This document shows, piece after piece, positions 960 through 15,074 of a stretch of 55,360 nucleotides of DNA. The translations under genes and the position numbers were made by a program. Below the pieces are notes generated by a model. That model did not search any database. It saw only the letters and a list, made by a program, of their open reading frames with translations, and was not told where the DNA came from. Each line of letters starts with the position of its first letter. Position 1 is the stretch's first letter. The DNA comes from Chloroflexota bacterium (GTDB lineage Bacteria > Chloroflexota > Limnocylindria > Limnocylindrales > CSP1-4), in the NCBI GenBank assembly GCA_003141955.1, contig PLOC01000004.1, positions 140 to 55,499 of the forward strand, in the 5' to 3' direction.

Positions 960-1577
960 TCACATCGCCCGCCGACCCTGCAGCGCTCTAATCAGGGTCA
1001 CCTCGTCGGCGTATTCGAGGTCACCGCCAACCGGCAATCCCCGCGCGATCCGGGTCACGCTGCCGACCAGCGGCTCCAGACGCTCGGCCAGGTACATTGC
1101 CGTGGCCTCTCCTTCGAGAGTGGGGTTCGTGGCGATGACGACCTCCTCGAATCGCGCGCCGGCCCGGTTCGCCTCGTCCGCGCGCTCGAGCAGTTGCCGG
1201 ATCTTGAGACGCTCGGGACCCACGCCGTCGATCGGCGAGATGGCGCCGTGAAGCACGTGGTACAGGCCCTTGAACTCGCCGGTCCGCTCCAGTGCGAGGA
1301 CATCCAGCGGCTCCTCGACGACGCACAGCCGCGCGGCGTCCCGCCCCGGGTCGGAGCAGATCGAGCAGACGGGCCGATCGCTGATGTTGAAGCAGCGCTC
1401 GCAGAAAACGACCTGCTCCCGCACCGCGATCAGGGCGGCGGCAAGGGCGCGGGCTTCGGTATCGGGGGCGCGCAGCAGGTGATACGTCAGCCGCTGGGCG
1501 GTCTTGGGTCCGATGCCGGGCAGGCGGGCGAAGGATTCGATGAGCCGCGCGACCGGCTCGATCAGAACGGCGGGCAC
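960..1577 (-). CDS. recR: recombination mediator protein RecR
   Basis: The 205-aa product has the usual length and architecture of RecR, which acts with RecF and RecO to load RecA at gapped DNA. Visible features are an N-terminal helix-hairpin-helix (LPGIGPKTAQRL, residues 19-30), a four-Cys zinc finger (C59, C62, C71, C74) and a Toprim domain beginning at VVEEPLD (about 86) with the glutamate/aspartate residues expected there. It starts 6 nt after the stop of ybaB, so the two are co-transcribed with dnaX. This dnaX-ybaB-recR order is widespread in bacteria. Confidence 0.97.
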   Translation of the reverse strand: MPAVLIEPVARLIESFARLPGIGPKTAQRLTYHLLRAPDTEARALAAALIAVREQVVFCERCFNISDRPVCSICSDPGRDAARLCVVEEPLDVLALERTGEFKGLYHVLHGAISPIDGVGPERLKIRQLLERADEANRAGARFEEVVIATNPTLEGEATAMYLAERLEPLVGSVTRIARGLPVGGDLEYADEVTLIRALQGRRAM

Positions 1578-1583
1578 TGCAGG

Positions 1584-1889
1584 CTACATCCCTGGCAGGC
1601 GGAGACCGCCGGTGACGCCCGCCGTCTTCGACGCGGCCAACTCCCGAGCGGCTCGCTGCGCGTCTGTGACGGCCGCGACGATCAGGTCCTGGAGCATCTC
1701 GACGTCCGTGGGATCGACTGCCGACGGATCGATCGTGACGCCCATGAGTTCCTGCTTGCCATTGACGACGGCCTTGACCACGCCACCCCCGGCGGTCCCT
1801 TCAACAGTGGTCACGGTGAGCTCATGGTCCAGGCGCGCCAGGTCTTGCTGCATCTGCATTGCCATCCGCTGCAGGTTGGCCATTCCCAT
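1584..1889 (-). CDS. ybaB: YbaB/EbfC family nucleoid-associated protein
   Basis: This 101-aa protein belongs to the YbaB/EbfC family of small dimeric DNA-binding proteins. Visible features are the N-terminal helix rich in Met and Gln, the segment TVEGTAGGGVVKAVVNG near residues 28-44 and the I-D-P-S motif near 53. The ATG at 1887-1889 follows AGGAGG with 7-nt spacing; a second ATG two codons in is possible. It lies between dnaX and recR, the usual context for the family. The C-terminus ends in GGLRLPGM, typical of family members. Confidence 0.93.
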   Translation of the reverse strand: MGMANLQRMAMQMQQDLARLDHELTVTTVEGTAGGGVVKAVVNGKQELMGVTIDPSAVDPTDVEMLQDLIVAAVTDAQRAARELAASKTAGVTGGLRLPGM

Positions 1890-1996: not shown

Positions 1997-3613
1997 CTAA
2001 CCGACGTCGCCCACGTCGACCGCGTCGTCGCCGTAGATGCGCTTGAACTCCGACAGGAGGCGGGCGCTGTCGGGATCCTCCGGCAGCGGGGCAACCTCCA
2101 CGTTCGCCGCCACGCAGCGCACGGAGACCGGCATGCCCAGGACCCGGCTGACGCCATCCTCCAGGATGGGGCGGCGGCGGTCGGCCACGTCCTTGAAGAA
2201 GCTCTGGGTCTCCGGGAAGCCGAGAGTGACGACGTTGCCGTCGACGCCGACCGGGCGGCAGGCGACGATGAGCGGCCGCGTCGGCGGACTCTTGCTGATG
2301 ACCTCGACGATCTCGGCCCAGCGTTCCAGCAGCAGCTGGAGGGTTGGACCGGAACGGGGGCCGGGGGCGGCCGAAGGCGAAGGCTCGACCGGAGCCGAAC
2401 GGGCGGGCCGAGCCGGCCTCTCCGGCGGAGCCGGACTGGCGGGCCGAGCGGCCGACGGTGTGGACGCGACCGAAGGCGCGGGAACCGGCGCCCGAACCAC
2501 GGGACGCTCCACCGGCGCTGGCGCCGGCGCGGCGACCGCGGCCCCGGCCCCGGCGACCGCGGCCGCACCGACGGGCGCCAGCAGGGCCAGCTCAAGCTGC
2601 AGTCGAAGGCCGCCGGCACCCGGATGCGCCATGTCGATCGAGGCCAGGCGCCTGGCGGCAGCCGAGACGACGCCCGGGCCGGCGGACGCAAGCCCCGACG
2701 GCGTTCCGCGACCCAACGACGAGAGCAACGCGAGGCGCAGCCCCTCGATCGCCTGCTCCGTGAAGGCGCGCAGGTCGCGGCCCCGTTCCTCCAGCCCGTC
2801 GAGGATCTCGATGCCGGCAACGGCCTCGCCTCGGACCAGCGCCTCGAGGAAAGCCTCGACCGTCTCCTCCTCGACCAGACCCAGGACGTCGCGGACGTGG
2901 TCCGCCGTCAGCGCGCCGGCATCCGTGCCGAGCAACTGGTCGAGCATCGACTCGGCGTCGCGCATGCCCCCGGCGGCCAAGCGGGCGATCAGGTCGATGG
3001 CGTCGGGCTCGGCCGTCCGGCCGTCCGCCGCGAGAATCGTTTTCAGCTTGCCGCCGATCTCGCCCACGGTCAGCCGCCGGAAGTCGAAGCGCTGGACGCG
3101 GGAGACGACCGCCGGCCGGATCTGGGTGCTGTCGGTGGTGCAGAAGACGAAGACGACATGGTCGGGCGGCTCTTCGAGGGTCTTGAGCAGGACGTCCCAG
3201 CCCTCGCGGATCCGCTGGACCTCGTCGACGATGAAGACCTTGACGGTCAGGTCCGAGGGAGCGGTGTAGATCCGGGGCAGGAGCTCGCGCATGTCATCGA
3301 CGCGGTTGTTCGAGGCCGCGTCCATCTCGCTGACGTCCAGGGCGCGGCCGTCACGAATGGCCACGCAGGCCGGGCATTCGTCGCACGGCTCGCCGTCACG
3401 AAGGTTCGAGCAGTTGAGCGCCTTAGCCAGGATTCGCGCCATCGAAGTCTTGCCGGTCCCTCGCGGACCGACGAACAGGTAGGCATGGGCGGTCCGGCCC
3501 GAACGCACGGCGTTGCGCAGCGTCTCGACGACCGCCTGCTGGCCGACGATCTGGCCGAACGTCTGGGCGCGCCAGCGGCGATAGATGGCTAGATGCGGTG
3601 CGGTCGAACTCAC
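1997..3613 (-). CDS. dnaX: DNA polymerase III subunits gamma and tau
   Basis: This is the clamp-loader ATPase of the replicative polymerase. The AAA+ domain starts with the family box W-R-x-Q-T-F near residue 14. The Walker A motif GPRGTGKTS is at 49-57, the four zinc ligands are C68, C77, C80 and C83, and a DEVQRI Walker B-type segment is near 130. After domain III comes an Ala/Pro-rich linker of about 75 residues, then a conserved tau-type C-terminal domain. At 538 aa this is the full tau form; I saw no slippery site for programmed frameshifting. It heads dnaX-ybaB-recR. Confidence 0.97.
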   Translation of the reverse strand: MSSTAPHLAIYRRWRAQTFGQIVGQQAVVETLRNAVRSGRTAHAYLFVGPRGTGKTSMARILAKALNCSNLRDGEPCDECPACVAIRDGRALDVSEMDAASNNRVDDMRELLPRIYTAPSDLTVKVFIVDEVQRIREGWDVLLKTLEEPPDHVVFVFCTTDSTQIRPAVVSRVQRFDFRRLTVGEIGGKLKTILAADGRTAEPDAIDLIARLAAGGMRDAESMLDQLLGTDAGALTADHVRDVLGLVEEETVEAFLEALVRGEAVAGIEILDGLEERGRDLRAFTEQAIEGLRLALLSSLGRGTPSGLASAGPGVVSAAARRLASIDMAHPGAGGLRLQLELALLAPVGAAAVAGAGAAVAAPAPAPVERPVVRAPVPAPSVASTPSAARPASPAPPERPARPARSAPVEPSPSAAPGPRSGPTLQLLLERWAEIVEVISKSPPTRPLIVACRPVGVDGNVVTLGFPETQSFFKDVADRRRPILEDGVSRVLGMPVSVRCVAANVEVAPLPEDPDSARLLSEFKRIYGDDAVDVGDVG

Positions 3614-4034: not shown

Positions 4035-4122
4035 TGGCGGAGAGGGAGGGATTTGAACCCTCGATGGGTTGCCCCATACCGCATTTCCAGTGCGGCGCCC
4101 TAGGCCACTAGGCGACCTCTCC
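4035..4122 (-). tRNA. tRNA-Ser(GGA)
   Basis: An 88-nt cloverleaf with acceptor strands GGAGAGG and CCTCTCC, a long variable arm typical of serine tRNAs, a TTCAAAT T-loop and an encoded CCA. The anticodon loop CTGGAAA gives anticodon GGA, reading UCC and UCU. It is 67 nt downstream of the next tRNA-Ser on the same strand. Confidence 0.95.
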
Positions 4123-4189: not shown

Positions 4190-4275
<86 letters not shown>

Positions 4276-4354: not shown

Positions 4355-4837
4355 TTAGCCGGCTGCCGTCCTGAGGCGCTCGGCCGAGCGCAGGCTTTCG
4401 ACCGGGCCGGCCTTGACGAAAAGCTCCTCGGCTTCCTCGCAACGGATGCCGCTCACGACCTTGAGCTTGTGCGACAACCGTGTGTCCTGGGCGAGCTGCA
4501 CCGCACCGCCTGCCGCGCCGTCGACCGAGTTGGAGACGGCGAAGACGAGCGCTTCGACGTCGCACGCCAGCAGAGCCCCGACGCACATCGGGCATGGCTC
4601 GCGGGTGACGAAGACCGTGGCGTCGGCCAGGCGGTCGCGGCCGAGCTTCCGGGCGGCCTCGCGGAGGGCGACGATCACGGCGTGGGCGGTGGGATCGTTG
4701 GTTTCCTGGACCTTGTCGTGGGCCCGGGCCACCATCGCATCGCTGACGACCGCCACGGCGCCAATCGGGGCCTTGCCCTGGTCGAGCGCGAGTTGGGCCT
4801 CGGCCAGAGCCTCTCCCATGAACAGCTCGTAGTTCAT
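4355..4837 (-). CDS. TadA-like nucleoside deaminase with altered catalytic residues
   Basis: The 160-aa protein aligns along its length with TadA, the enzyme that turns A34 of tRNA-Arg(ACG) into inosine. Zinc ligands H52 and the P81-C82-P-M-C85 motif are present. However, the invariant HAE motif reads H52-A53-V54 (codon GTG), so the catalytic proton-shuttling glutamate is replaced by valine. The residue at the position of the substrate-contacting Asn46 of E. coli TadA is D41. In this family loss of that Glu abolishes deamination, so I infer an inactive or repurposed protein. A tRNA-Arg with anticodon GCG lies at 8019-8094, which needs no inosine. The position upstream of tRNA-Ser, SRP RNA and dnaX matches that of Bacillus tadA (yaaJ). 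Confidence 0.85.
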   Translation of the reverse strand: MNYELFMGEALAEAQLALDQGKAPIGAVAVVSDAMVARAHDKVQETNDPTAHAVIVALREAARKLGRDRLADATVFVTREPCPMCVGALLACDVEALVFAVSNSVDGAAGGAVQLAQDTRLSHKLKVVSGIRCEEAEELFVKAGPVESLRSAERLRTAAG

Positions 4838-4921
4838 GGGCTGATCATACAGGCCCGCGCCGGCGGAAAGAGGCGCCTGACGCCCTTCGCCGGCCGGCCG
4901 GGGGGGCAGCCAGTCTCGCGC

Positions 4922-5824
4922 TCAGTCCCGTCCGGATTCCGGCGGGGCGACCGGCTCAGACAGCTCGCGAATCGCCCGGGCGAGGACCGACATGTCCTCG
5001 TCGCCGTGACCGCCGTCGAGCAGCCGGTCCTCCAGGGCCGCGGCGAGCATCGCCGTCGGAAGCATGACGCCAGTCTCGCTCGCCATCTCCAGCGCGATCC
5101 CGAGGTCCTTGCGGTGGAGCGCCAGGCGGAAGCCGAGCGGGTACTCGTCGTCGATCATGCGGCCGCTCCGGTTCGCCAGGACCCAGCTCTGGGCGGCGCC
5201 GCCCGATAGGGCCTCCACAAGGCGGCCCGCCTCGAGGCCCGCACGGATGCCGAGGACGATCCCCTCCGCCACGCCCAGGTAGGCCCCGCAGATGATCACC
5301 TGGTTCACGGCCTTGGCGGCCTGGCCGTTGCCGAGCGGTCCCAGGTGAGTGATCGTCCGTCCGATCACCTCCAGGACGGGCCGAGCCCGCGCCACGTCGG
5401 AGTCGGAGCCGCCGACGAAGATGGTCAGGGTGCCCAGCCGAGCGCCCTCCGAGCCGCCGGAGACCGGGGCGTCCACCATGCCCACGCCCCGTTCCGCCAG
5501 GCGGCGGCCGAACTGGCGCGTCGCCCCGGCGGAGATGGTCGAGCAGTCGAGGACGAGGGATCCGGCGGCGGCGCCCTCCGCCACTCCGGCCGGGCCGAAG
5601 AGGACGGACGCGACGTCGGGGCTGTCCGAGACGCAGACGACGATGACGTCCGAGCCGGCGGCCAGCTCCGCGGGGCTCGCCGCTTCGCGCGCGCCAAGCT
5701 CGAGGAGCGCCGCGGCACGACCCGGTGTTCTGTTCCAGACGGTGAGCGGCGCGCCCGCACGGGCCAGGTTGGCGGCCATCGATGCGCCCATGGTGCCGAG
5801 CCCGACGAACCCGATCCGTTCCAT
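4922..5824 (-). CDS. NAD(P)-dependent beta-hydroxyacid dehydrogenase (3-hydroxyisobutyrate / tartronate semialdehyde reductase family)
   Basis: The 300-aa product is a two-domain member of the 6-phosphogluconate-dehydrogenase-like family. It begins with the Rossmann motif G-L-G-T-M-G at residues 7-12, has the substrate motif DAPVSGGSEGA near 120 and the catalytic lysine in GNGQAAKAVNQ near 170. These enzymes reversibly oxidise small beta-hydroxyacids. The substrate cannot be told from sequence. The start at 5824 is chosen because AAGGAG precedes it by 6 nt and it sits directly before the Rossmann fold; the open frame extends further upstream without support. Confidence 0.85.
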   Translation of the reverse strand: MERIGFVGLGTMGASMAANLARAGAPLTVWNRTPGRAAALLELGAREAASPAELAAGSDVIVVCVSDSPDVASVLFGPAGVAEGAAAGSLVLDCSTISAGATRQFGRRLAERGVGMVDAPVSGGSEGARLGTLTIFVGGSDSDVARARPVLEVIGRTITHLGPLGNGQAAKAVNQVIICGAYLGVAEGIVLGIRAGLEAGRLVEALSGGAAQSWVLANRSGRMIDDEYPLGFRLALHRKDLGIALEMASETGVMLPTAMLAAALEDRLLDGGHGDEDMSVLARAIRELSEPVAPPESGRD

Positions 5825-5968
5825 GCTCGCTCCTTCGCCAGCTTGCATATGCCGACACCATGCTAGCGGCTGGGCCTCGGATCCTCGCCGGCGCGGTGAT
5901 GCGCGGTGATACGATGCCACCCCGGAGGCCGCCGTCCGGACGTGTCCGGAGTGGCTGACGGCGTCAAC

Positions 5969-5994
5969 GGGTCGGCGGGTCGGCGGGTCGGCGT
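5969..5994. repeat. short tandem repeat, (GGGTCGGC)n
   Basis: An 8-base unit is repeated about three times in the 266-nt gap between the divergent dehydrogenase and deacetylase genes. I see no gene or clear promoter there. Such repeats may vary between strains. Confidence 0.5.
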
Positions 5995-6090
5995 AGGAGA
6001 CGGGCGCGCGGGCCTGCTTGCCGTTCCTCGGCTCCCGGTGGAGCCGGGCACATTGCCGGCCGACCTGGCGCACACGATGGAGTCGACCAC

Positions 6091-7110
6091 TTGAATCCGG
6101 CCATCCGCTCGCGGCTCGTCGGGAGAGTGACCGACGCCCTGCTCGTATCCACGCTCGTGGCTGCCTGCGGCGCCGCAACGCCGTCCCCGTCCCCGTCCCC
6201 AAGCCCGAGCCCGAGCCCGACCACGCCGAGCGCGAGCCCGTCCGAGGCGGTCGCTTCCGTCGGACCGACGTTCACGCCGTCGCCGACACCCTCGCCGACA
6301 CCCTCGCCGACCCCATCGCCATCGCCGACTCCATTCGCGGTCGTCGCCGCCACGAGCTGCGACCCGAGCGTTGTTCCGGGCGCCGTGTACCCGCCGGCAG
6401 CGCCGTCGCCGAATGCGAAACCGGTAACGCTGCATGTCCCCATCCTCGAGTACCACCGCATCGTCCCGCCGGCCCAGGCCGGGCGGTCGGTCGCAGGGCT
6501 GACCATGACGCCCCAGGTCTTCGATGGCCAGATGGCCGCGCTGGCCAAAGCCGGGTGGCACACCATCACCCTCAGCGCCCTCGCCGACGACCTGGCAGCC
6601 AACGTGTCTCCGCCTCCTCAAACCTTCGTGATCACGATCGACGATGGCTGGTGGGACGGCTACAACTACGCCTTCAATATCCTCCTGAAGTACGGGTTCG
6701 TGGCCACCTTCTTCGTGATCGCCGACCGGATCGGGCAGCCCTCGTTCCTGGCACCGGACGAGATCCAGATCCTGGCCGCGGCGGGCAACGACATCGGCGA
6801 CCACACCGTCACTCATGCCGCATTGACGGCGGCCCAACCGAAGACGCTGACCTACGAGATCGACGCCGGGGCAGCGACGATCGCCGCGATCACCGGCCGC
6901 TGGCCCGAGACACTGGCCTATCCCCTCGGCAAGACGGACTCGCGGGTGATGGCCGCGGTTGCCGCCTGCAAGCCGCTGCGACTCGCCGTCGTGGAGGGCA
7001 GCGGCGGACCGGAGACGTGGGCCACCCGGTTCCGCGTCTCGCGCATCCAGGTCGGATCGCAGCGGCTGCCTGCCGATCTGCTCGCCCAGGTACAACGTGT
7101 CGGCCGCTGA
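6091..7110 (+). CDS. lipoprotein polysaccharide deacetylase (NodB domain)
   Basis: The start is a TTG at 6091; no in-frame ATG lies nearby. The 339-aa protein has an N-terminal hydrophobic segment ending in a lipobox, V-A-A-C (Cys near residue 27), then a long Pro/Ser/Thr linker of PSP and PTPS repeats to about residue 80. The NodB homology domain follows, with TIDDGW near 187 (metal-binding Asp) and DHTVTH near 235 (metal-binding His pair). It is predicted to be a lipid-anchored carbohydrate esterase acting on cell-envelope or exopolysaccharide N-acetyl groups. Its 3' end overlaps the next gene by 14 nt. Confidence 0.85.
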   Translation: MNPAIRSRLVGRVTDALLVSTLVAACGAATPSPSPSPSPSPSPTTPSASPSEAVASVGPTFTPSPTPSPTPSPTPSPSPTPFAVVAATSCDPSVVPGAVYPPAAPSPNAKPVTLHVPILEYHRIVPPAQAGRSVAGLTMTPQVFDGQMAALAKAGWHTITLSALADDLAANVSPPPQTFVITIDDGWWDGYNYAFNILLKYGFVATFFVIADRIGQPSFLAPDEIQILAAAGNDIGDHTVTHAALTAAQPKTLTYEIDAGAATIAAITGRWPETLAYPLGKTDSRVMAAVAACKPLRLAVVEGSGGPETWATRFRVSRIQVGSQRLPADLLAQVQRVGR

Positions 7111-7912
7111 TCGACCCCGCCGGGGCACGAGCCGGGCACGACTGCTGTGGCTCCTGGTGCTGGCGACGGCCCTGCTCGCCTTCACGCCTCCGGGGAAGCG
7201 CGCGGTCCGGCGGCTGGCGCTGTTGATTGATTCGCGCGTGGAGGGCGCCGCGGAGCCGAACGCACGCGGCTATGCGCGCTTCATCGCGCCGGTGTTTCGC
7301 AGGCTGTACGAGCGCGTGACCGACGACGCGGCAACCGAGCTAGCGGGCCGGAGGACCGGCGGCAGCGGCGAGATCGTCATCCTGGACATCGGCTGCGGAC
7401 CGGGCGACCTGGCCGCCATGCTGTCCGAACGACTGCCGGAGGCGCGGGTCGCCGGCCTCGACCTCTCGCCGGACATGGTCGAGCTGGCGAGGCGGAGGGC
7501 AACGGGCGACGGACGGCTCAGCTTCGAAGTCGGAGACGTGGCCAGCCTGCCCTTCGAATCCGGGTCGATCGACCTGGTCGTCTCGACGCTGAGCCTGCAC
7601 CACTGGCCGAACGCCGGGGCGGGTTTCGCCGAGATCGCGCGAGGGCTTCGACCGGGCAGCGCTGCCCTGATCTACGACCTTCGCCTGGTGACGCTGGGGG
7701 CCGAAACACTGCCCGACGTCGCGCGGCAGGCAGGGCTGCCGGCCTCGCGGCTGCGGCGCGAACGCCTCCGCGGCGGCCTCCTCGCCAACCTGTTCGTCCG
7801 CTTCCGCGTCGAGCGTCCGGCCGGGGAACCGGCTGCCGACGTCTCGTCTGCTGCGCGGGCAGCCGGCCATGCTAGAATCCCGGCCGCTGTGACTCCTGGA
7901 GAGGTCGCATAG
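7097..7912 (+). CDS. membrane-anchored class I SAM-dependent methyltransferase
   Basis: I choose the GTG at 7097, overlapping the deacetylase end, because the preceding AGG suits initiation and it yields an N-terminal hydrophobic anchor (LLWLLVLATALLAF). The Methyltransf_11-type domain follows: motif I LDIGCGPGDLA near residue 95, the acidic end of strand 2 in GLDLSP near 120 and motif IV STLSLHHW near 165. The substrate is unknown. The frame ends at 7912, 15 nt inside the tRNA-Ser(GCT) gene that starts at 7898, so the last codons and the tRNA 5' end share sequence. Confidence 0.75.
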   Translation: MSAADRPRRGTSRARLLWLLVLATALLAFTPPGKRAVRRLALLIDSRVEGAAEPNARGYARFIAPVFRRLYERVTDDAATELAGRRTGGSGEIVILDIGCGPGDLAAMLSERLPEARVAGLDLSPDMVELARRRATGDGRLSFEVGDVASLPFESGSIDLVVSTLSLHHWPNAGAGFAEIARGLRPGSAALIYDLRLVTLGAETLPDVARQAGLPASRLRRERLRGGLLANLFVRFRVERPAGEPAADVSSAARAAGHARIPAAVTPGEVA

Positions 7913-7990
7913 TCGGTCTAGTGCAGCGGTTTGCTAAACCGCCAGGTGGGGTAACCTGCCTCGAGGGTTCGAATCCCTCCCTCTCCGCCA
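7898..7990 (+). tRNA. tRNA-Ser(GCT)
   Basis: A 93-nt class II tRNA with acceptor GGAGAGG/CCTCTCC, long variable arm, TTCGAAT T-loop and encoded CCA. The anticodon loop TTGCTAA gives GCT, reading AGC and AGU. Its first 15 nt overlap the 3' end of the methyltransferase frame. Confidence 0.95.
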
Positions 7991-8018
7991 GTCCTCCGCT
8001 AGGGAGACACAGCCGCGC

Positions 8019-8094
8019 GCGCCCGTAGCTCAGTGGATAGAGCGTCAGGTTGCGGACCTGAAGGTCGTGGGTTCGAGTCCCGCCGGGCGCGCCA
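8019..8094 (+). tRNA. tRNA-Arg(GCG)
   Basis: A 76-nt cloverleaf with acceptor GCGCCCG/CGGGCGC, encoded CCA and anticodon stem TCAGG/CCTGA around the loop TTGCGGA, giving anticodon GCG (reads CGC, and CGU by wobble). Most bacteria instead use tRNA-Arg(ACG) whose A34 is edited to inosine by TadA. The unmodified GCG form removes the need for that edit, which fits the catalytic defect in the TadA-like protein at 4355-4837. It is 28 nt downstream of tRNA-Ser(GCT) and is followed by a terminator. Confidence 0.93.
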
Positions 8095-8650: not shown

Positions 8651-8721
8651 CCGTTCCCGGAGCCTAGGCCCGGGATCGCGGGTCGTGCCGGGTGAAGCAG
8701 AGGCAGCGCCTCTGCTTTTTT
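8641..8721 (+). terminator. attenuator of the shikimate operon: pause hairpin plus intrinsic terminator
   Basis: The end of the leader peptide gene (8641-8652) pairs over 12 bp with 8681-8692, enclosing a smaller CCCGG/CCGGG hairpin. This is followed by an intrinsic terminator: stem AGCAGAGGC (8696-8704), loop AGC, then GCCTCTGC(T) and six T at 8716-8721. A ribosome on the Phe/Tyr codons or at the stop codon would change which hairpins can form. I could not identify a clear antiterminator that competes directly with the terminator stem, so the exact switching mechanism is open. Confidence 0.8.
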
Positions 8722-8771
8722 GTTGCCCGACCAGGACCCCGCGGGCAGGCCCCCACGAGGAGGACCGCCAC

Positions 8772-9848
8772 ATGATCGTAGTGATGTCCGTAGGGGCAAC
8801 CGAACAACAGGCAAATGACGTCCGCGACCTCGTCAAGGCCGCCGGGCTGACACCGCATGACAACTACGGCACGCAGCGAGTTGTGATCGCCGTTCTGGGC
8901 GACGTGGGACCGCAGAGGGACCATTTGATGAGCAAGCTGAACCTGATGCCCGGCGTCGAATCGATAACGCCCATCAGCCGCCCCTACAAGCTGGCCTCTC
9001 GGGAATCCCATCCCGAGGACACGATCATCGAAGTCCCGGGCGCCAGAATCGGCAACGGCACGCTCACGATCATGGCCGGCCCGTGCTCGGTCGAGAACCG
9101 CGACATGATGATCGCGACCGCCAGAGCCGTGGCCGCGGCCGGGGCCACGATCTTGCGTGGCGGTGCGTTCAAGCCGCGCACCAGCCCCTACGCCTTCCAG
9201 GGCCTGGGAATCGAGGGCCTGAAGTACCTGGCGGAAGCCGGCCAGGAAGCGGGCCTGCCGACGATCACCGAGGTGATGGAGCCGGGCCAGGTCGAGATCG
9301 TGGCCAGGCACGCGGACATCCTCCAGGTGGGCACCCGCAACATGCAGAACTACTCCCTGCTGACGGCCGTGGGCAAGGCCGGCAAGCCGGTCATGCTCAA
9401 GCGCGGCTACGGGGCGACGATCGAGGAGTGGCTGATGGCCGCCGAGTACATCGTCTCGTCCGGCCAGCCCAACGTCATCCTGTGCGAGCGTGGCATCCGA
9501 ACATTCGAGACATACACGCGCAACACGCTCGACCTGACGGCCGTGCCGCTCCTGCACCACCTGACGCACTTGCCGGTCATCGTCGACCCATCCCACGCCA
9601 CCGGGAAGCGCTGGCTGGTACGGCCGATGGCGATGGCCGCGGTGGCCGCCGGTGCGGACGGAATCATGGTCGAGGTTCATCCCAACCCGGATGAGGCTCT
9701 GTCCGACGGCGAGCAGTCGCTGACATTCGAACAGTTCGCGGACATGGCGAGCGCGGTCAAGAAGATCCACGAGGAGGTTCGGACCCTCATCAAGGATCCC
9801 TTCGCCATGACCGGTCCCGTCCGCGTCGACGGCGTCAGCAAGCACTGA
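8772..9848 (+). CDS. aroF: 3-deoxy-7-phosphoheptulonate (DAHP) synthase, type I-beta with regulatory domain
   Basis: Catalyses the first step of the shikimate pathway, PEP plus erythrose-4-phosphate to DAHP. The ATG at 8772 follows GAGGAGG. The 358-aa protein has an N-terminal ferredoxin-like regulatory domain of about 75 residues (starts [13 protein letters not shown]), as in the Thermotoga enzyme, which is feedback-inhibited by Phe and Tyr. The catalytic barrel follows, with MAGPCSVE near 103 (metal-binding Cys), the [12 protein letters not shown] box near 132, KRGYGAT near 215 and DPSHATGKR near 275. It is the first gene after the attenuator, so both transcription and activity probably respond to aromatic amino acids. 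Confidence 0.97.
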
Positions 9849-9852
9849 CCTC

Positions 9853-11214
9853 ATGGGAACGCCGCCGCTCCGCCGGGAGCAGTCCCGCTCTGTCCAGCCT
9901 GCCGCGCGTCTGCGCGGCGAGCCCCGGCTGCCCGGAGACAAGTCGATCTCACATCGGGCGCTGATCATGGCCGCGCTCGCCGAGGGGCGGAGTCTGATCG
10001 ACGGGGCGGGCGATGGGCGTGACGTCCAGGCCACGGCCGGAATCGTCGCCGCGCTCGGGGCGAGCGTGAAGCGGGTCCGCGAGGACGGTCTGAACGTCGA
10101 CTACGCCGTGGCCTCTCCGGGCGTGGAAGGCCTCCATGAAGCCGACGGCGTGCTCGACTGCCGCAACTCCGGGACGAGCCTGCGAGTGTGCTCCGGAGTG
10201 CTCGCGGGACTGCCCTTCTTCTCCGTCCTGGACGGCGACGCTTCATTGCGGAGCCGTCCGGTGGCCCGTATCATCGAGCCACTGCGCTCGATGGGCGCAG
10301 ACTTGCGCGCACGTCGATCCGATTCCCTTCCACCGCTGGTCGTCATCGGTCGCTCGCAGCTGCGGGCGATCGATTTTGAGACCCGCGTACCGAGCGCCCA
10401 GGTCAAGTCGGCGATCCTGCTGGCGGGCCTGCGCGCCCAGGGGCGGACGACGGTGCGCGAGGCTGTTGCCACGCGGGACCACACCGAGCGGATGCTTCGT
10501 TCGCGCGGCGTCGAGGTCCGGCGCGTGTCTGAGAATGAGTCTGGAGGCGGACCCGTGGCCTGGACGCTGGAGGGTGGAGCGTGGCTTTCCCCGCTCGACG
10601 AGCGCGTCCCGGCCGATCCCTCGGCCGCGGCCTTCTGGCTCGTCGCCGGGGCGATCCATCCGGACGCGGCCCTGACGCTCCGCGGCGTGGGTGTAAACCC
10701 TACCCGTCGGGCGGCGATCGACTTCCTGGTCCGAATGGGCGCTCGAATCGAGGAGACGGCGGTCGGCGAACCCTCCGGCGACATCGGCGAGCCGCTGGCC
10801 GATCTCACGGTCCGATCGAGCGAGCTTACGGCCATCGATCTGGGGCCGGCAGAGGTGGCCGCTGCCATCGACGAGATCCCGATCCTCTGCCTGGCCGCCA
10901 CCCAGGCGCGCGGCCGGACAACGATCCGCGGCGCCGGGGAGCTTCGAAACAAGGAATCCGACCGCATCGCGGGCATCGCCGCCGGCCTTACCGCCCTGGG
11001 AGCGCGGATCGTCGTCAGCGGTGACGACATCACCATCACCGGCCCCACGCCGCTGGCCGGTGCCGCCACGGAAACGCTCGACGATCACCGGCTGGCGATG
11101 ACCTTCGCCGTGGCCGGACTCATCGCCCGGGGAGCGACGACCATCGACCTGGCGGAGAGCGCGGCCGTCTCGTACCCGAGCTTCTTCCCCGAACTCGAAA
11201 GGCTGAGAGCATGA
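9853..11214 (+). CDS. aroA: 3-phosphoshikimate 1-carboxyvinyltransferase (EPSP synthase)
   Basis: Makes EPSP from shikimate-3-phosphate and PEP. The 453-aa sequence shows the substrate motif GDKSISHRALIMAALA near residue 28, the NSGTSLR motif (usual NAGTAxR) near 106, DEIPILCLAA near 338 and the E-L-R-N-K-E-S-D-R motif near 360. The C-terminal DDHRLAMTFA box is also present. It starts 4 nt after the aroF stop and overlaps aroE by 4 nt. The LPG-D-KS-I-SH-R start is close to the N-terminus, so the annotated start is reasonable. Confidence 0.97.
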   Translation: MGTPPLRREQSRSVQPAARLRGEPRLPGDKSISHRALIMAALAEGRSLIDGAGDGRDVQATAGIVAALGASVKRVREDGLNVDYAVASPGVEGLHEADGVLDCRNSGTSLRVCSGVLAGLPFFSVLDGDASLRSRPVARIIEPLRSMGADLRARRSDSLPPLVVIGRSQLRAIDFETRVPSAQVKSAILLAGLRAQGRTTVREAVATRDHTERMLRSRGVEVRRVSENESGGGPVAWTLEGGAWLSPLDERVPADPSAAAFWLVAGAIHPDAALTLRGVGVNPTRRAAIDFLVRMGARIEETAVGEPSGDIGEPLADLTVRSSELTAIDLGPAEVAAAIDEIPILCLAATQARGRTTIRGAGELRNKESDRIAGIAAGLTALGARIVVSGDDITITGPTPLAGAATETLDDHRLAMTFAVAGLIARGATTIDLAESAAVSYPSFFPELERLRA

Positions 11215-12116
11215 CCAACCGCGTCGTCCTGATCGGCCACCCGGTCGCCCACTCGTTCTCGGGCGGGATGCAGCAGGCTGCCTTCGATGCCCTCGAAATT
11301 GACGCCCGGTACGAGCTGTGGGACCGCCGGCCGCTCGACCTTGCCGACGCAATTGCCGAGCTGCGCGGCGACGACTTCCTGGGGGCGAACATCACGATCC
11401 CTCACAAAGAGCACGTCGTGCCGCTCGTGGACAAGCTCAGCGAGGAGGCGCAGGCCATCGGGGCCGTCAACGTGATCGCCCGCGACGGCAAGAAGCTCAT
11501 CGGCCACAACACGGACGTGGCCGGGTTCAAGTCGGCCCTCGACAAGATTGTGGGTCGCCAGAAGATGCCGCGGCACGCCATCGTCCTCGGCGCCGGCGGC
11601 GCCGCCCGAGCGGTCGTGTACGCCCTCATCACCGAGGGATTCCAGCGCGTCGTGGTCTTCAATCGCCACCTCCACCGCGCCGAGGGGATGGTTCGGCATT
11701 TCGGCCGGAGCGCCTCGCACATGGATCTGCGGGCGATGCCCTGGCACAATTCGGTCCTCGAAGCGGAGTTGGCGAAGACGAAGCTGCTGGTCAACGCCAC
11801 TTCCATCGGCACGGTCCCGACCGAGACGCCGATCCCGGCCGAGCTCCTGCCGTCCGATCTGCTGGTCATGGACCTGGTCTACAACCCGCCCCAGTCGCAG
11901 CTCCTTCGGGATGCCGCGGCGGCGCGCTGCACCACGCAGAACGGCGAGCACATGCTGCTCCAGCAGGGCGCGCGTTCATTCGAGCTGTGGACCGGCAAGG
12001 CAGCCCCGCTCGACGTCATGCAGGCGGAGCTGGATCGCGCCCGTGAACAGGGCCTTCGCCAGATGCCGATCGACTTCGGACCGGCCGGCGAGACCCGCCA
12101 GGCCGCCGGCTCGTAG
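11211..12116 (+). CDS. aroE: shikimate dehydrogenase
   Basis: Reduces 3-dehydroshikimate to shikimate with NADPH. The 301-aa protein has the substrate-binding N-terminus (GHPVAHSFSGGMQ, residues 9-21; NITIPHKE near 62 with catalytic Lys; GAVNVI near 84; GHNTDVAGF near 98) and the Rossmann motif GAGGAARAV near 126. The VNATSIG motif near 194 and the C-terminal QNGEHMLLQQGARSFELW box are complete. The start ATG overlaps the aroA stop (ATGA), indicating translational coupling. Confidence 0.97.
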   Translation: MTNRVVLIGHPVAHSFSGGMQQAAFDALEIDARYELWDRRPLDLADAIAELRGDDFLGANITIPHKEHVVPLVDKLSEEAQAIGAVNVIARDGKKLIGHNTDVAGFKSALDKIVGRQKMPRHAIVLGAGGAARAVVYALITEGFQRVVVFNRHLHRAEGMVRHFGRSASHMDLRAMPWHNSVLEAELAKTKLLVNATSIGTVPTETPIPAELLPSDLLVMDLVYNPPQSQLLRDAAAARCTTQNGEHMLLQQGARSFELWTGKAAPLDVMQAELDRAREQGLRQMPIDFGPAGETRQAAGS

Positions 12117-12131
12117 GGAGAGGGACGGGAC

Positions 12132-13400
12132 GTGGGCCGCCTCCGCTTCCTGACCGCCGGGGAGTCGCACGGCCCTGCCCTTGCCGCCACGCTGGAAGGC
12201 GTTCCCGCCGGGCTGCCCCTGACAGCGGACCAGATCGCGCTCGACCTGGCCCGGCGCCAGCGCGGCTACGGCCGGGGTGCGCGCAGCACCTCCATCGAGC
12301 AGGACCGGGCCGAGATTCTGGCCGGCGTCCGCCACGGCCTCACGATCGGGTCGCCGATCCTGCTGCTCATCCGCAATCGCGACTGGGAGAACTGGACCCA
12401 GGTGATGGCGGTCGAGCCGTTGACGGACGAGCAGGCCGCCGAGCTGGCCCGGCTCGTTGAGGCGGGCGACAAGCGCGCCGCCCCGATCACGCGGCTGCGG
12501 GCCGGGCACGCGGATCTGGCCGGGGCCACGAAATACCGCTTCGACGACGTCCGAAACGTCCTCGAGCGAGCCTCGGCGCGCGAGACGGCGGCCCGGGTCG
12601 CGGCGGGAGCGGTTGCGCGGGCGCTGCTCACCAGCCTGGACATCGACGTGTGGTCGCACACCGTCGAGGTCGGCGGAGCGGCGATGAACCCCGCGCGCGC
12701 CACTCGCACGCGCGAGGAAGCGGAGGCGAGCCCGGTGCGCTGTCTCGACCCCGAGGCGGAGACGCGCATGGTGGCCCGCGTCGACGAGGCCCGCGAGGCC
12801 AGCGACACCGTCGGCGGCGTCTTCGAGGTCGTGGCCCGGGGCGTCCCGATAGGCCTCGGCAGTCACGTCCACTGGGATCGGCGCCTGGATGGCGCCCTGG
12901 CCGGCTCCGTCATGAGCATCCCGATAGTCAAGGGCGTGGAGTTCGGCCTTGGCTTCGCGCAGACGCGGCTCTTCGGGTCGGCGGTCCAGGACGTGATCCA
13001 CGGCCGCGACGCCGACGGTGGGTGGCGGCGCGGCACGAACAACGCCGGCGGCCTGGAGGGCGGCATCTCGAACGGCCAGCCGATCGTCATCCGGGGCGCG
13101 GTGAAGCCGATCTCGACGCTCCCGCGGCCGCTCCCCTCCGCGGATCTGATCACCGGCGAGCCCGTCGAGAAGGCCCACTACGAGCGCAGCGACATCAGCG
13201 TCGTGCCGGCCGCCGGAGTCGTGGCCGAAGCCATGGTCTGCCTCACGCTCGCCGACTTCGTGCTGGACAAGTTCGGCGGCGACTCGATGGCGGAGCTGCT
13301 GGACAACGCCGCTCACTACCTGGCCCGGATCGCCGGGCGCGGTGGCGCGGACCGGCGCACTGGCGCCACGGGCGGCGCGGCGCCGGCCGAGAGCGAGTAG
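12132..13400 (+). CDS. aroC: chorismate synthase
   Basis: Converts EPSP to chorismate using reduced FMN, the last step of the common pathway. It starts with GTG at 12132; the N-terminal [13 protein letters not shown] is the family signature and directly follows. Further boxes are RRQRGYGRG near 40, the segment [13 protein letters not shown] near 140 and the R-x-D signature near 340 ([19 protein letters not shown]). The length of 422 aa is slightly above the usual because of a C-terminal Gly/Ala-rich tail. It sits 15 nt after aroE and 3 nt before aroKB. Confidence 0.97.
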
Positions 13401-13403
13401 ACC

Positions 13404-15074
13404 GTGGACCTGGTCCTCGTCGGCCTGCCCGGCAGCGGCAAGAGTGCCGTGGGCAGGCGGCTCGCTCAGCGGCACGGCGCCACCTTCGTCGACCTCGACG
13501 ACATGATCGAGCGCCGGGTCGGCCGGCCCGTGCCCGCCATCTTCGCCGACGAGGGCGAGCAAGCCTTCCGGCGCTACGAACGCGAGGCCGTCCTGTCCCT
13601 CGGCCCGGCGGACCCGGACGCCCGGCTGCGCCGCGTCATCGCCACCGGCGGCGGCGCAGTCATCGACCCGCGCAACCGCTGGCTGCTGTATCGCGGCCGC
13701 TACCCCGTCTGGCTCGACGGCCCCGCCGAGGCCCTGGGCCACCGCATCGGACGGAGCCCTAACGTCCGCCCGCTCATCTCCGGCCGCGACCCCACAGTCG
13801 CCATTCGAGAGCTTGCGGTCGCCCGCGAGCGGTTCTATTCGCCCGCCCTGCAGATCGGCGCGACGGCCCCGATCAACGCCATCGTCGGCGTCCTCGAGCA
13901 CCAGATGGCCGAGGGCCCGGCCGATTCCGTCACCCTGATGCGCGCCGAGACCGCGATCGGTCGGGTGGAGATAGGCCACGGCATCGCCTCCTCGGCCATC
14001 TCCGGCGCGCTGCGCCGGCAGCATGCCCGCCGCGCCATCCTCGTGGCCGATCCGAAGACGTGGGAAGTCGCCGGCGCCGCGATCGCCGACGCCCTGGCCG
14101 CGGACGGCTGGCCGATCGAGCGCGTGCTGCTGCCGCGCGGCGAGCATGCCAAGCGCCTCCGCGTCGTGGAGCAGGCCTGCCGCGAGCTCGCCCGTCTCCA
14201 CGTCGATCGCCGCGAAACGCTGGTCGCCATCGGCGGCGGGGCGCTCACGGACGCGGCCGGGTTCGTCGCCGCCTCGTACCTTCGCGGCGTGCCGATCGTC
14301 CAGGTTCCGACGACGCTGGTCGGTCAGATCGACGCGGCCCTGGGCGGGAAGACGGCCGTCGACCTGCCCGAGGGCAAGAACCTGGTCGGCGCCTTCCACC
14401 AGCCGGTCGCATTCGTAGCCGACGTGTCGCTCCTGGCGACGCTGCCGCCGAGACAGCTCCGAGCCGCCCTGGGCGAGGCCGTGAAGATGGGCGTCCTGGG
14501 CGACGAGCGCCTGCTGGAGCTGATCGAGGAAGACGGCGAGGCGATCGCGCAGGGCGATCGGCGGCCGTTCGAGTCGGGCGGCCTGGCCGAACTGGTCGAG
14601 CGCTGCGCCTGGGCCAAGGTCGAGGTTGTCACCGCGGACGAGCGCGAGTCGGGCCTGCGGATGACGCTCAATCTGGGCCACACCATCGGCCACGGCATCG
14701 AAGCGGCCGCGGGCTATAGCAAGATTCTCCACGGCGAGGCGGTGGCTTACGGCCTGCGAGGTGCACTCGCCATTGCCCGGGCGCTCGACATCGTGCCCCC
14801 CGAGCGCGCCGGGCGGGTCAACGCCCTGCTGGATCGGCTTGGGCTGGGCCTTACGCCGCCGCCGGTTTCGCCGGAGTCCGTCGCAGAGCACATGGCCACG
14901 GACAAGAAGCACGCTCTCGGCCGCCTGAGCTGGGTCCTGCCGACGGCGACGGGCGTCATCGTCCGCTCGGACGTGCCTGCCGAGGCGGTGGCGGCGGGCC
15001 TCGCGGCGGGCCTTCGACTCTCGCCCATCAACGCCGCCGTCGCAACCCCCGCGGAGGTTTCGGTTCGACCATGA
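13404..15074 (+). CDS. aroKB: bifunctional shikimate kinase / 3-dehydroquinate synthase (AroK-AroB fusion)
   Basis: The 556-aa frame encodes two enzymes in series. Residues 1 to about 175 are shikimate kinase, with Walker A GLPGSGKS at 7-14, the shikimate-binding DLDDMIERR near 31 and GGGAVID near 80. Residues from about 178 are 3-dehydroquinate synthase, with PRGEHAKR near 247, IGGGALTDAAGFVA near 274, PTTLVGQIDAALGGKTAVD near 299, KNLVGAF near 323 and the metal-binding histidines in NLGHTIGHGIE and HGEAVA. The start is a GTG 3 nt after aroC. The 3' end overlaps aroQ by 4 nt. It covers the second and fifth steps of the pathway. Confidence 0.96.
   Translation: MDLVLVGLPGSGKSAVGRRLAQRHGATFVDLDDMIERRVGRPVPAIFADEGEQAFRRYEREAVLSLGPADPDARLRRVIATGGGAVIDPRNRWLLYRGRYPVWLDGPAEALGHRIGRSPNVRPLISGRDPTVAIRELAVARERFYSPALQIGATAPINAIVGVLEHQMAEGPADSVTLMRAETAIGRVEIGHGIASSAISGALRRQHARRAILVADPKTWEVAGAAIADALAADGWPIERVLLPRGEHAKRLRVVEQACRELARLHVDRRETLVAIGGGALTDAAGFVAASYLRGVPIVQVPTTLVGQIDAALGGKTAVDLPEGKNLVGAFHQPVAFVADVSLLATLPPRQLRAALGEAVKMGVLGDERLLELIEEDGEAIAQGDRRPFESGGLAELVERCAWAKVEVVTADERESGLRMTLNLGHTIGHGIEAAAGYSKILHGEAVAYGLRGALAIARALDIVPPERAGRVNALLDRLGLGLTPPPVSPESVAEHMATDKKHALGRLSWVLPTATGVIVRSDVPAEAVAAGLAAGLRLSPINAAVATPAEVSVRP

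Follow-up and report, generated by a model that had tools for sequence, protein, structure and literature searches.

Here we show that a 55,360-nucleotide stretch of DNA from a Chloroflexota bacterium of the order Limnocylindrales (GenBank assembly GCA_003141955.1, contig PLOC01000004.1; hereafter, the window) carries, in the genomic position of tadA, a gene for a TadA-like protein whose catalytic glutamate is replaced by valine, and that this Glu-less form is conserved and under purifying selection in related genomes. TadA is the bacterial enzyme that edits adenosine 34 (A34) of tRNA to inosine, and is essential in Escherichia coli. We consider it quite probable that this positional orthologue of tadA was disarmed after the loss of tRNA-Arg(ACG) and kept as a non-deaminating protein of the TadA fold with a new role.

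A TadA-like protein without its catalytic glutamate

The gene and the two codons that set it apart are as follows.

4355..4837, minus strand: Glu-less TadA orthologue with HAV at residues 52-54 (open reading frame, profile searches, predicted model)
4676..4678, minus strand: GTG codon of V54, where HAE has its catalytic Glu (codon reading)
4715..4717, minus strand: GAC codon of D41, at the site of an Asn kept in 25/25 HAE TadAs read (codon reading, alignment)

The open reading frame (ORF) at 4355-4837(-) runs from an ATG start to a TAA stop and encodes 160 amino acids, with DPTAHAV where the TadA motif is DPTAHAE. An original prediction, made from the letters of the window, had read the HAE motif as HAV, the equivalent of Asn46 as D41, and the zinc ligands as kept; the codons GTG at 4678-4676 and GAC at 4717-4715 bear this out, and H52, C82 and C85 are all present.

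Profile searches place the protein in the deaminase superfamily (Pfam MafB19-deam, E 3.4e-25; dCMP_cyt_deam_1, E 4.3e-22) and match the NCBIfam TadA model over residues 2-138 (E 2.6e-30) with 105.4 bits against a cut-off of 150 bits, a threshold also missed, at 128.6 bits, by a canonical HAE TadA from within the class. The best chain of solved structure is 7cph_A, the tRNA adenosine deaminase of Bacillus subtilis (E 5.2e-29). A structure model built from 75 sequences, which replaced an earlier eight-row model of mean predicted local distance difference test (pLDDT) 66.3, has the TadA fold with a mean pLDDT of 89.5 and a predicted template-modelling (TM) score of 0.85; Foldseek ranks B. subtilis TadA first (E 6.8e-16, TM 0.83 by query), and the VIA-align Z score is 24.8 against Salmonella TadA and 19.9 against mouse ADAT3.

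Conservation and selection of the Glu-less form

Related genomes, designated below by G numbers, were grouped into families by kinship labels (f1, f2, f3, f4 and f49, with f3 as the sister family), and a match at E 1e-8 was present in 37/61 of them. The gene was read in 95 Glu-less genomes, 78 of f1 and 17 of f4, and set against 25 controls chosen as HAE, comprising 18 from f3 and seven canonical TadAs drawn from other parts of the phylum. Column 54 of the Glu-less set holds V in 88 genomes, I in 6, T in 1 and E in none. Because the 88 valines are written in four codons (GTG 49, GTC 35, GTT 3, GTA 1), the amino acid itself is kept at this site; the 95 genomes and the four synonymous codons also exclude a sequencing error at codon 54. 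H52, C82 and C85 are invariant in 95/95, as is E80, and D48 and T50 are likewise invariant within the set.

Among relatives in named genomes, where 501 loci were confirmed and the best 80 kept, the motif is HAV in 74, HPV in 4 and HAI in 2. The closest of these 80 is 96% identical, and their records are titled Chloroflexi, Chloroflexota, 'Candidatus Limnocylindrales' and, once, 'Anaerolinea sp.'. In an unselected reading, all 18 TadAs read from f3 have HAE, and Glu is present in 20/20 loci read outside the class; the HAV form may nevertheless occur beyond this class. Further HAE or HGE hits in G021, G077, G057 and G059 (f1/f4) are second, less similar deaminases that stop short of the profile's C-terminal part. 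Of 15 pattern stretches in viral contigs none was confirmed as a relative, and a PADLOC search for defence-gene identity gave no match.

The loss of Glu is accompanied by other changes. Asn41, a residue with a role in adenine and anticodon recognition, is present in 25/25 HAE controls and in 6/95 of the Glu-less set, where column 41 holds D 62, E 10, N 6, H 4 and R 3. Column 44 is E in all 25 controls and R 19, Q 18, A 13 and others in the Glu-less set, while column 123 goes from His in 25/25 to R 72 and H 18 of 95. The C-terminal FF..R is found in 17/17 f3 sequences versus 0/94 Glu-less ones (counting only rows whose fetched stretch includes a stop). At the same time, the Glu-less set has gained near-invariant residues of its own: Y3, G21 and A34 in 94/94 rows with a letter, S129 in 92/94 and G130 in 94/94.

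It is conceivable, if rather improbable, that the protein retains enzymatic activity as a zinc hydrolase, using other general acid/base residues on a small molecule or a different RNA. The complete zinc triad and the invariant E80, D48 and T50 fit such a view; column 41, however, offers no invariant acid, which rules out Asp41 as a new catalytic residue, and in ADAT3 the same E-to-V change accompanies an inactive site, according to passages of PMC8216470. That the window protein has lost deaminase activity is what we infer from the absence of Glu and of features that bind RNA.

The Glu-less gene is under strong purifying selection within the genus, where the ratio of nonsynonymous to synonymous substitution rates (dN/dS) has a median of 0.079 and a range of 0.016-0.156 (157/171 pairs used). 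Medians for wider groups, f1 0.275, f4 0.193 and HAE f3 0.297, were taken at higher divergence and are not directly comparable with the genus value; dS is high across families, and 161/3003 f1 pairs were dropped as >1.5 or saturated. In a tree of 80 rows, with 39/77 f1 sequences sampled, the HAV rows lie on one side of a branch with support 100/99, the simplest reading of which is that Glu was probably lost once.

The locus is that of canonical tadA

The neighbours of the gene in the window are listed below.

960..1577, minus strand: recR-like gene, conserved neighbour (ORF, tblastn relatives in the equivalent place)
1584..1889, minus strand: ybaB-like gene, conserved neighbour (ORF, tblastn relatives in the equivalent place)
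1997..3613, minus strand: dnaX (gamma/tau), conserved neighbour (ORF, profile match)
4035..4122, minus strand: tRNA-Ser(GGA) (tRNA search, relatives' loci)
4190..4275, minus strand: tRNA-Ser(CGA), the next downstream neighbour of the tadA locus (tRNA search, relatives' loci)
7898..7990, plus strand: tRNA-Ser(GCT), which often adjoins the tRNA-Arg gene (tRNA search, relatives' loci)
8019..8094, plus strand: tRNA-Arg(GCG) (tRNA search)

The genes at 1584-1889 and 960-1577 are taken to be ybaB and recR. The order tadA, tRNA-Ser(CGA), tRNA-Ser(GGA), dnaX, ybaB, recR is shared with canonical loci and is complete around HAE tadA in G407 (f49) and in G058 and G146 (both f3); it is partial at other HAE loci, and none of it was present in G374, G470 and G131 within the stretch taken. 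Because this gene order is shared, the window gene is a positional orthologue of tadA, and most simply the Glu-less gene would be the tadA of its lineage rather than a paralogue.

Among the same best 80 of 501 named loci, tRNA-Ser(CGA) is present in 58/60 with at least 600 bases downstream, tRNA-Arg(GCG) in 42/60 with at least 4.5 kb upstream, and tRNA-Arg(ACG) in 0/80. The original prediction had pointed to tRNA-Arg(GCG) less than 4 kb away; the tRNA is there, but its closeness carries no weight as evidence, being old synteny in the phylum. The gene's proximity to tRNAs is inherited, because canonical tadA has the same tRNA-Ser/dnaX neighbourhood. This bears on the idea, which we regard as unlikely, that the protein is a non-catalytic RNA-binding protein still handling tRNA, for instance as a chaperone of the neighbouring tRNAs. 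Its TadA ancestry and its setting among tRNA genes would suit such a function; that setting, however, is ancestral, Asn41 and the FF..R tail are gone, and column 123 has largely changed from His to Arg.

Arginine decoding in the assembly

The window's assembly (2.80 Mb, 124 contigs, 95.6% complete) contains a single TadA homologue, and no second TadA was found in it. One candidate at E 0.003 was rejected as antisense to a sensor-kinase-like ORF, presumably of the GAF histidine-kinase type. A PF00383 search of the assembly found just one further gene, dCMP-deaminase-like and with HAE; this dCMP-deaminase/ComEB-like protein (G000:C90:26413-26790) scores 71 bits with the ComEB model, whose cut-off is 219 bits.

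A search with RF00005 found 37 tRNAs; the tRNA-Arg anticodons read among them are GCG, TCG, CCG, TCT and CCT. tRNA-Arg(ACG), the standard substrate of TadA, is not among these 37 tRNAs of the 95.6% complete assembly. In ten window ORFs the Arg codons are CGC 140, CGG 96, CGA 23, CGT 22, AGG 8 and AGA 6. By standard wobble G34 reads CGC/CGU, U34 reads CGA/CGG and C34 reads CGG; inosine is therefore not needed, because the G34, U34 and C34 tRNA-Arg together read CGN. The original prediction held that A34-to-I editing had been lost and the anticodon switched, a view that an intact second tadA together with a tRNA-Arg(ACG) elsewhere in the genome would have contradicted. Neither was found in genome-wide searches of this assembly, and the missing ACG together with the single Glu-less TadA supports the claim, with the loss of activity as its deduced part.

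The same data speak to the idea that the protein is an ADAT3-like subunit forming a heterodimer with an active deaminase. The identical E-to-V change is suggestive of it, as are a profile that also matches ADAT3 (E 6.4e-18) and the model's Z of 19.9; yet the assembly holds no second TadA-type protein, its other PF00383 gene is dCMP-deaminase-like, and no A34 substrate tRNA-Arg was found there, which leaves a heterodimer highly improbable.

Arginine tRNAs in relatives and across the phylum

The tRNA patterns used for other genomes miss variant tRNAs, and counts for f1 and f4 are limited to genomes at least 85% complete where so stated. Among the latter, tRNA-Arg(GCG) is present in 36/39 f1 and 7/7 f4 genomes (43/46) and tRNA-Arg(ACG) in 0/46. 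The 28 genomes of f3 divide into 15 with ACG, two with GCG (G056 and G150) and 11 with neither; a TadA with HAE was read in 14/15 of the ACG genomes, the exception being G151, and in G056 and G150 no TadA hit was better than E 5e-10, that is, none above background. In f2, with genomes of ~1 Mb, GCG is found in 10/19 and ACG in 0/19.

Strict patterns over the phylum, own class included, give GCG in 205/400 genomes and ACG in 10/400, and 8/10 of the strict-ACG genomes yield a TadA-like match with E no higher than 1e-20. The distant genome G338 (C134:10000-15000) carries tRNA-Arg(GCG) and tRNA-Arg(ACG) side by side at 2696-2849, in the row tRNA-Ser(TGA), tRNA-Ser(GCT), tRNA-Arg(GCG), tRNA-Arg(ACG), and has an intact HAE TadA elsewhere. 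Its family mate G502 has GCG; allowing 2 mismatches to the pattern revealed no ACG there, and a search at E 1e-20 no TadA. G338 is likely an intermediate of the decoding switch.

As an observation apart, tRNA-Arg(GCG) is far commoner in this phylum than the cited passages of the literature suggest for bacteria.

Observations that weigh against this reading

Several observations do not sit easily with a tadA disarmed once and then kept for a new role. The relatives in named genomes, among the best 80 of 501, are all metagenome-assembled genomes (MAGs) or metagenome bins. The gene tree nests f4 within f1 and groups f3 with more distant HAE rows, contrary to the kinship labels, a mismatch for which transfer or long-branch effects are possible causes, and the ranges of net charge overlap between the Glu-less and HAE groups. 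The link between ACG and TadA is imperfect in drafts: ACG-bearing G151 and G401 have no TadA hit at E 1e-20. Among the matches listed, a tRNA-Arg(ACG) also occurs in the f1 MAG G082 (C64, 284-358), on a 4.8-kb contig; it could stem from contamination or a mobile gene, or be a true exception. The ORFs on that contig resemble AbiE, and no TadA was found in this 60% complete MAG.

Two further points touch on whether the gene is needed at all. It was not found in 19/19 f2 genomes (~1 Mb) and is therefore dispensable in some relatives, and in G024 the HAV TadA (G024:C6:20000-30000, about 4479-4799(-)) lies on a long contig and lacks 34 residues at its start, of which no trace was seen upstream in any of three frames. 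Together with the loss of tRNA-contact features and the two f3 GCG genomes without a hit above background, these would suit a decaying pseudogene, drifting after the loss of its substrate tRNA and awaiting deletion. The zinc ligands, however, are kept in 95/95, Val persists through four synonymous codons, dN/dS within the genus is 0.079, and Y3, G21, A34, S129 and G130 are more conserved than in HAE TadA, and we regard decay as very unlikely.

Other features of the window

In DnaX (1997-3613(-)) the Walker-B region reads DEVQRIREGWDVLLKTLEEPP, versus DEVHML..FNALLK in others. Among 46 entries in which the motif was found (duplicates included), 38 have DEVQ, none of them f4-type, and 8 have DEVH, these being f4-type loci and G407. 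We read the change as a second family-wide oddity, in the protein gene adjoining the tadA locus. Farther along, window 8685-15074(+) holds a run of ORFs resembling a shikimate cluster, with DAHP synthase identified by profile match and further members that we take to be aroA, aroE, aroC and an aroK-aroB fusion.

Discussion

The following course of events would account for these data. In the ancestor of the clade, a G34 tRNA-Arg would have taken over CGC/CGU, with tRNA-Arg(UCG) and (CCG) covering CGA/CGG. tRNA-Arg(ACG) may then have been lost, removing the standard substrate of TadA; the order suggested by G338 is that the G34 tRNA was gained, the A34 tRNA lost and the enzyme then freed. TadA would subsequently have lost the Glu that shuttles protons, exchanged for Val probably in a single event, and also the features that bind the anticodon loop. 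What remains would be a protein of the TadA fold that no longer deaminates, stabilised by zinc and probably forming a homodimer, which may have been kept for a new role in binding or scaffolding; this order, the dimer, the binding of zinc in the cell and the role are what we infer. The suggestion that a TadA remnant had acquired a new or structural role would fit the selection seen.

The window protein resembles the TadAs of B. subtilis (7cph), Staphylococcus aureus (2b3j) and E. coli (1z3a) in fold, zinc ligands, the DPTAH and EPCxMC motifs and the gene locus, but differs from them in lacking the catalytic Glu, in having Asp for Asn, in lacking the C-terminal FF..R and in belonging to an assembly without tRNA-Arg(ACG). 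ADAT3/Tad3, the inactive subunit of eukaryotic ADAT2/3, offers another comparison. As set out in passages of PMC8216470, ADAT3 owes its inactivity to V225 at the site of Glu, to a zinc that is capped by the C-terminal Asp and to a C-terminal helix that is short; the window protein shares with it the change from Glu to Val with zinc ligands kept, the shortened C-terminal region and the loss of anticodon-reading features. Unlike ADAT3, it has no N-terminal ferredoxin-like RNA-binding domain, being 160 amino acids in all with the TadA match from residue 2; it is also bacterial and presumably of separate origin, and no active ADAT2-like partner was found in the assembly. The protein falls outside the definitions of both active TadA and ADAT3, and its anatomy is nearest to that of a partnerless ADAT3 core.

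The tRNA switch has precedents. In Mollicutes without tadA, tRNA-Arg(GCG) and (UCG) replace ACG, according to part of Yokobori 2013 (PMC3711424). The window's assembly is alike in lacking ACG and having GCG and UCG, but unlike in that a Glu-less tadA is kept here, where theirs is gone, and in that tRNA-Arg(CCG) is present. The same paper, in the part cited, proposes that tadA mutations came first, whereas G338 suggests that the tRNA gain did. According to passages of PMC4041420, A34 tRNA-Arg is missing in 19/319 bacteria and a rare GCG stands beside ACG in high-GC genomes; in the main text of that paper, TadA and Chloroflexi have 0 occurrences each. Excerpts of PMC8007984 describe a correlation of ACG with tadA and state that GCG is missing from the vast majority of bacteria, and PMC10454642 shows that tadA is dispensable in B. 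subtilis. The change in the decoding system that had been predicted is thus present, but of a known kind, as the phylum-wide frequency of GCG and the Mollicutes both indicate. An earlier report of a Glu-less bacterial TadA was not found in the titles and abstract starts of the open-licence PMC literature, and what is apparently new is the retention of such a protein, not the tRNA switch.

A broader claim, to which we give about an even chance, is that tadA has become, throughout the clade, a pseudo-deaminase that stands alone, is conserved and has taken on a new binding role, essential or regulatory; this would be an independent, partnerless re-invention of the ADAT3 principle, enabled by the prior takeover of A34 by G34. 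For annotation, the Glu-less genes carry a warning: they resemble TadA and should not be labelled as active. From an evolutionary standpoint, one phylum shows states by which cells may leave inosine decoding, with both tRNAs and an intact enzyme (G338), with G34 and no enzyme found (G056, G150 and G502), and with G34 and an enzyme disarmed yet conserved (f1 and f4). The order of these events thereby becomes testable, and the origin of ADAT3 acquires a counterpart in bacteria.

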